DNA from: Spirochaetota bacterium
Lineage (GTDB): Bacteria; Spirochaetota; UBA4802; UBA5368
NCBI GenBank assembly: GCA_035477215.1
Contig: DATIKU010000058.1
Span: 1-64,000, forward strand
Direction of reading: 5' to 3'
DNA length: 64,000 nt
A model generated the notes under the pieces. It did not search any database and was not told where the DNA came from. It saw only the letters and a list, made by a program, of their open reading frames with translations. Numbering within the stretch: position 1 is the stretch's first letter; every line of letters starts with the position of its first letter. Below, piece after piece: positions 32,342 to 32,918 of this stretch. Position numbers and translations under genes: made by a program.

Positions 32342-32411
32342 ATTGATGCCTCCCCTTAATAAAGAATATTGCAAGTGATGCATTCCACGCTCACGGCGGG
32401 ATTCACACCCC

Positions 32412-32615
32412 TCAGGTCCCGCCGTATCCGACTGTTACCTTCCCTCCTTCGATTATAACCGGCACCTGGCGGCGGCCGCCTGAAAATTTCAGCATCTCGT
32501 CCATCTTGGAAGCGTCGGTTTTTACATCGTGATAATCCGCCCTGTCCCCATAGGCCGACCTGGCCTCGCTTGTATAGGGTCATCCCGCCTTACCATAAAT
32601 GACAACTCTTGGCAT
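32412..32615 (-). CDS. Probable selenocysteine-containing glutaredoxin-like protein (UGA at codon 12)
   Basis: A 67-residue thioredoxin-fold protein that ordinary gene calling misses because codon 12 is UGA (32580-32582). Read through, it gives MPRVVIYGKAGUPYTSEARS, then a normal glutaredoxin layout with the cis-Pro segment RRQVPVIIEGG and the glycine-rich end VGYGGT. U replaces the nucleophilic Cys of the CPYx redox motif. GGAGG lies five bases before the ATG. A SECIS-like hairpin with an AGGUC apical loop begins right after the UGA. A nonsense-mutated pseudogene is the alternative, but site and hairpin argue for Sec insertion. selA, selB, selC and selD are not in the window. Confidence 0.85.
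32546..32579 (-). promoter_or_regulatory. Bacterial SECIS element inside the selenoprotein gene
   Basis: Directly after the UGA, CCCUAU pairs with AUGGGG (6 bp, one wobble). A seven-base 5' bulge is followed by AGGCC pairing with GGCCU and an AGGUC loop. The loop starts 18 bases after UGA. From memory, the E. coli fdhF SECIS has an AGGUCU loop about 17 bases after its UGA, so position and loop match closely. Confidence 0.8.
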
Positions 32616-32918
32616 AATTTCCTCCTTTTTCCGCACAACGAGTGCTGTAATCGACTTGCAGCGCACTGACGCAATATGGGCCTTCCCGGTCACGCTGCAT
32701 CTGTGACCTATATACCGGAAATCATACGAAGTCAAGCGATCATCAATATGCGGGCATGCCCTATTTTAACACAAAGAACAAACCCCCGCAGCCTTCGGGA
32801 ACGGTATCCCTTAACGAAAGTAAATTAAAATTATACTTGCCGGGCATCGATCGGCCGGTATTCTGGGATAGTTTCTGCGGGGCCACCTGCGACCGCACAT
32901 CCGATTCTGGCGGCCAAC
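32616..32918. other. Divergent intergenic region, selenoprotein / trkA
   Basis: 303 bases with no supported gene. It contains the GGAGG of the leftward selenoprotein gene and the start region of trkA. It is AT-rich around 32755-32840, where promoters would be expected, but no clear -35/-10 pair stands out. Confidence 0.4.

Follow-up and report, generated by a model that had tools for sequence, protein, structure and literature searches.

The 64,000-nucleotide window analysed here, from contig DATIKU010000058.1 of a Spirochaetota bacterium, carries on its minus strand, at 32403..32615, what is almost certainly the gene of a genuine double selenoprotein belonging to UXX-star family 1. The gene consists of 70 sense codons, two of them UGA codons predicted to specify selenocysteine (Sec), and a TGA stop. 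Translation of the minus strand from 32615 to 32412 gives MPRVVIYGKAG-UGA-PYTSEARSAYGDRADYHDVKTDASKMDEMLKFSGGRRQVPVIIEGGKVTVGYGGT-UGA, and the codons that come after the second TGA are GGG GTG TGA, with the frame continuing as U-G-V-stop. The full product reads MPRVVIYGKAG-U12-PYTS...GYGGT-U68-GV*, where the UGA codons for Sec12 and Sec68 lie at 32580..32582 and 32412..32414, respectively, and the true stop codon at 32403..32405, all on the minus strand. A ribosome site, AGGAGG, stands immediately 5' of the ATG (AAAAAGGAGGAAATTATG), within a ribosome binding site region at 32616..32632 on the same strand (AAAAAGGAGGAAATT). An earlier sequence-only reading had placed an unannotated selenoprotein gene at 32412-32615, its strand unstated; the start, the good ribosome site, the stub of 11 codons ahead of the first UGA and the first Sec all hold. 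The end was wrong, and the product is not a single-Sec protein of 67 residues but one of 70 residues with two Sec, as the supposed stop at 32414-32412 aligns with the second Sec of the family. The gene ends at 32403, three codons further on. A plus-strand reading of 32412-32615 was dropped, since it yields no meaningful version of such a protein. Standard gene calling would shorten the gene to 11 codons, which the revised limits repair.

A lone in-frame TGA within 67 codons is by itself unremarkable; the profile match, homolog identity, third-position substitutions and covarying stem-loops together are far beyond chance. Read through both UGA codons, the protein matches the NCBIfam equivalog NF041114 over its full length (114.4 bits, E 2.1e-33, profile 1-70 of 70, cut-off 72), and the gene is an ordinary member of this already curated family. 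A 68-letter version, with the second TGA entered as Cys and without G-V, scored 110.5 bits, G-V thereby adding ~4 bits. The N-terminal UxxT motif, GKAG-U-PYT, occupies the glutaredoxin active-site position, in a Sec/Cys column that is invariant in 20 homologs, and the second Sec stands two residues ahead of the stop (U68-G-V-TGA), fitting U-x-x-star; we take the name UXX-star to stand for Sec-x-x-stop, that is, for the second Sec. A 2026 review that covers the prokaryotic selenoproteome gives NF041114 the motif UxxT and two Sec, citing Zhang and Gladyshev 2008 (PMC13188914), and a 2022 review names UXX-star family 1 distant glutaredoxin-like protein 1 (PMC9312934); the family is not mentioned in the deep-Sep paper. 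The description as a glutaredoxin-like UxxT protein with a cis-Pro (VPVI in the translation) was borne out by the motif and by fold matches. The protein has a glutaredoxin domain, as the Pfam model PF00462 is passed (32.8 bits, cut-off 22.9), yet it is not a classical glutaredoxin. Such proteins are defined by a CxxC/S motif, a score above the 90-bit cut-off of GRX_bact (TIGR02181) and a C-terminal helix that binds glutathione, whereas this one scores 31 bits with TIGR02181 and its chain stops shortly past the fourth strand.

Within the order, members above the NF041114 cut-off were found in 10 genomes among 98 relatives, each with exactly two in-frame TGAs (10/10), and a wider set of 393 genomes of the phylum returned the identical ten members. 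Named genomes gave 13 matches, three of which are contigs already among the relatives; these matches lie in metagenome-assembled genomes of Spirochaetes, Deltaproteobacteria, Nitrospirae, Syntrophaceae, Planctomycetota, Acidobacteria and Thermoleophilia. The homologs are 44-86% identical to the window protein, and where it has its two in-frame TGAs they carry TGA or a Cys or Ser codon. Of 20 distinct sequences, 18 have Sec at position 12 and two distant homologs have Cys (TGC), a Planctomycetota sequence (L063:3001-3213) and a Thermoleophilia sequence (L066:3001-3210), both of which keep Sec68; the expectation that homologs would have Sec or Cys at the active-site position is thus confirmed. 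Position 68 is Sec in 19, encoded by UGA in all 19 and never by UAA or UAG, and Ser (TCC) in the remaining one, a Syntrophaceae homolog (L062:3001-3204) in which the C-terminal Sec is replaced and the motif is UPHC, with a resolving Cys. The residues after Sec68 are conserved as G-V, or G-I, G-M, D-V or E-V, and the codon that comes next is established as the true stop because it is TAA in L030, L031, L032, L057, L059, L063 and L066 and TAG in L065. Over codons 13-67, the window gene and its relatives differ mostly at third positions (e.g. 7/4/30 and 5/3/15 differences by codon position), with dN of 0.08-0.36 and dS of 0.47-2.4, a pattern that indicates purifying selection past the first UGA. 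One further locus (L050:1501-1596, or G029:C83:25450-25545) matches just the C-terminal half of a UXX-star gene, second UGA included; a frameshift, an error or a decaying copy are candidate explanations.

Each UGA is followed by a predicted bacterial selenocysteine insertion sequence (bSECIS). The published model calls for a loop of 3-9 nt, a stem of at least 4 bp, a G at loop base 1 or 2, a distance of 16-37 nt from the UGA and a minimum free energy of at most -7.5 (PMC13188914). The first hairpin, AGGCC-AGGUC-GGCCU at 32552..32566 (minus strand), has its loop starting 18 nt after the UGA and G at loop position 2, and stem, loop, G and spacing all fit the model, with a minimum free energy of -14.7 for the region. 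In 17 sequences, 96.5% of its cells are paired, compared with 90.3% after shuffling, compensatory changes occur at two pairs, and both the percentage paired and the covariation score exceed 500 of 500 shuffles. The second hairpin, UCCCGC-CGUGA-GCG(U)GGA at 32384..32401 (minus strand), begins one base past the stop codon, in the 3' untranslated region (3'UTR); its 6 bp stem with a bulged U, its loop CGUGA and its spacing of 16 nt from the second UGA fit the model, and its energy alone, -5.8 kcal/mol, lies short of the limit. The corresponding hairpins are more stable in two close relatives, at -10.4 in L027 and -14.6 in L031. Among homologs the second stem covaries widely (UCCCGC/GCGGGA, CGCUGU/ACAGCG, UGCUGC/GCAGCA, AACUGU/ACAGUU, ACCCAU/AUGGGU), while its position is constant and so is the loop pattern, xG[G/U]. 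Perfect stems of at least 5 bp with the loop 16-20 nt from the UGA, a range picked after data inspection, occur in 10/18 Sec-containing cases after the first UGA and 14/19 after the second, where dinucleotide shuffles predict 0.27 and 0.30; these counts are inflated by relatedness, though the sequences come from several phyla. For the second hairpins such a count of stems at a fixed place is fairer than the shuffle test, which is biased by their preselection for pairing. The first stem is missing at 16-20 nt in both homologs with Cys12, and the homolog with Ser68 has no hairpin at the expected place of the second. The predicted hairpins broadly match the published model, bar the energy of the window's second hairpin and its non-coding location. 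One candidate for the second element, an inverted repeat enclosing the second UGA (CGGCGGGA...TCCCGCCG), was rejected because it would place the UGA in the loop and because the hairpin 3' of the repeat has a fixed place in relatives. An Rfam scan of the window returned no family. Nucleotide conservation in an element past the stop codon reflects RNA structure alone, and this covarying 3'UTR element, the mildly new part of the findings, is useful for testing the rules of SelB-SECIS recognition.

The host would be able to decode these codons. Its Spirochaetes-related genome (3.57 Mb in 62 contigs, apparently metagenome-derived), whose closest named relatives are metagenome-assembled genomes of Spirochaetes, contains a selD-selC-selA-selB cluster on contig C44 (122402-126051; loci L001, L009, L017 and L018), with scores of 481 bits for selA, 297 for selB and 77 bits for tRNA-Sec, so that all the Sec machinery anticipated from the first UGA is present. 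SelB is full length, ARAGORN assigns the tRNA-Sec (selC) a UCA anticodon, and SelD is itself a selenoprotein, with an in-frame UGA at the usual Sec position (GAGUASKIGP). selA was found in 10/10 genomes carrying a family member. In one of these, G006, it is split into three frame pieces (contig C59:16968-18549), possibly through assembly errors; the same genome keeps a UXX-star gene with two UGAs.

AlphaFold2 predicted a confident small glutaredoxin/thioredoxin-like fold (mean predicted local distance difference test score 91.2) that ends shortly past the fourth strand. The best Foldseek matches in the PDB were for the most part glutaredoxins, and nearly all of them were either that or close thioredoxin-like relatives (best E ~2e-3, template modelling scores ~0.6-0.75), and a sequence search of the PDB gave nothing beyond weak glutaredoxin matches. 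Decoding and biochemical function, as predicted from sequence and model, may be pictured as follows. SelB and tRNA-Sec would decode both UGA codons as Sec in vivo, and a separate bSECIS hairpin ~16-18 nt downstream of each UGA would direct this, the second one just beyond the stop. Sec12, at the usual position of the nucleophilic Cys and with Thr replacing the resolving Cys, would attack a disulfide, a selenenylsulfide or another oxidised substrate. Sec68, on a C-terminal tail that replaces the last glutaredoxin helix and lies after a GG loop near the active site, may resolve Sec12 or serve as the second ligand, yielding a diselenide or selenenylsulfide bond that a partner would reduce. A redox resolving role for Sec68 has roughly even chances of being correct. 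The only homolog without Sec68, L062, has the resolving Cys of UPHC, as this role predicts, and this one case suggests that Sec68 is exchangeable for a resolving Cys.

The full proposal, in which Sec68 is decoded through a bSECIS lying wholly in the 3'UTR and resolves Sec12 to make a one-domain diselenide redoxin, is a balanced bet. Several observations weigh against the picture drawn above. Sec68 persists in L066 despite the CPYC motif of that homolog, and a resolving role would thus not be exclusive. The second hairpin of the window has a one-base bulge, is worth only -5.8 kcal/mol alone and is not the structure of minimum free energy in context, where a competing hairpin, GGGGU/AUCCC, is lower in energy. 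The recent review, finally, proposes metal binding over redox activity for the UXX-star family (PMC13188914). If the proposal is true, the UXX-star genes would supply naturally occurring bacterial SECIS elements on which no protein-coding constraint acts, exposing the RNA requirements of SelB.

Metal binding is accordingly the main rival for function, leaving gene and family as they are: the redox fold would be a scaffold on which the two Sec bind a metal or metalloid (Hg, As), with no thiol-disulfide catalysis. A UxxT motif without a resolving Cys is in keeping with the suggestion made in the review, but the cis-Pro and the glutaredoxin-like active-site position are retained, and no metal-resistance genes were recognised adjoining the gene in the window or the surveyed loci, where few neighbours were scanned. 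We regard this function as possible but less probable than a redox role. Far less probable is a single-Sec protein of 67 residues, in which only the first UGA is recoded and the second is a stop. TGA can of course serve as a plain stop, and the imperfect second hairpin of the window would suit such a product, but UGA at codon 68 in 19/20 homologs with Ser in the other, TAA or TAG after U-G-V in eight, the conserved G-V (or its variants) after the codon, a profile that spans it and gains 4 bits from G-V, and a covarying hairpin after the second UGA all speak for the double selenoprotein. That the gene is an ordinary Cys glutaredoxin, decayed to a pseudogene or misread in sequencing, is conceivable in that a single TGC/TGA change gives the same frame and the 62-contig assembly apparently stems from a metagenome, but is refuted by the homologs: nine independent relatives, and members in other phyla, share both TGAs, and purifying selection extends across the UGA.

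Directly downstream and co-oriented lies a DUF3795 gene (PF12675, 31877..32341, minus strand, Pfam 66.4 bits), whose product has a Cys-rich, zinc-ribbon-like C-terminal part; it is possibly co-transcribed with the selenoprotein gene and is not a conserved neighbour of the family in the survey. On the opposite side lie trkA/trkH and an aldo-keto reductase gene, with synteny limited to the genus. The survey found no neighbour common to the wider family, and inference of function from genomic context was therefore dropped.

Glutaredoxin 3 and the Sec-glutaredoxins of Clostridium share with the window protein the fold and the CPYC/UxxC position, and the Clostridium proteins cGrx1 and cGrx2 are among the top PDB fold matches. 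In contrast to these proteins, the window protein, which is below the cut-off of the glutaredoxin 3 model, has no resolving Cys (UPYT) and no last helix, and carries a second Sec on its C-terminal tail. UXX-star families 2 and 3 and the HUGP/GUXX-star fusion (NF041211, NF047338 and NF045501) belong with it to the superfamily NF041212 of Sec-containing glutaredoxin-like proteins, but its scores of 46.7, 49.8 and 49.6 bits stay below their respective cut-offs of 100, 97 and 325. With UXX-star family 1 it shares length, UxxT motif, two Sec, the C-terminal U-x-x-stop and a full-length profile match above cut-off; apart from the bulged U of the second bSECIS there is no substantial difference, and the gene and its relatives add a spirochaete-lineage set to this known family.
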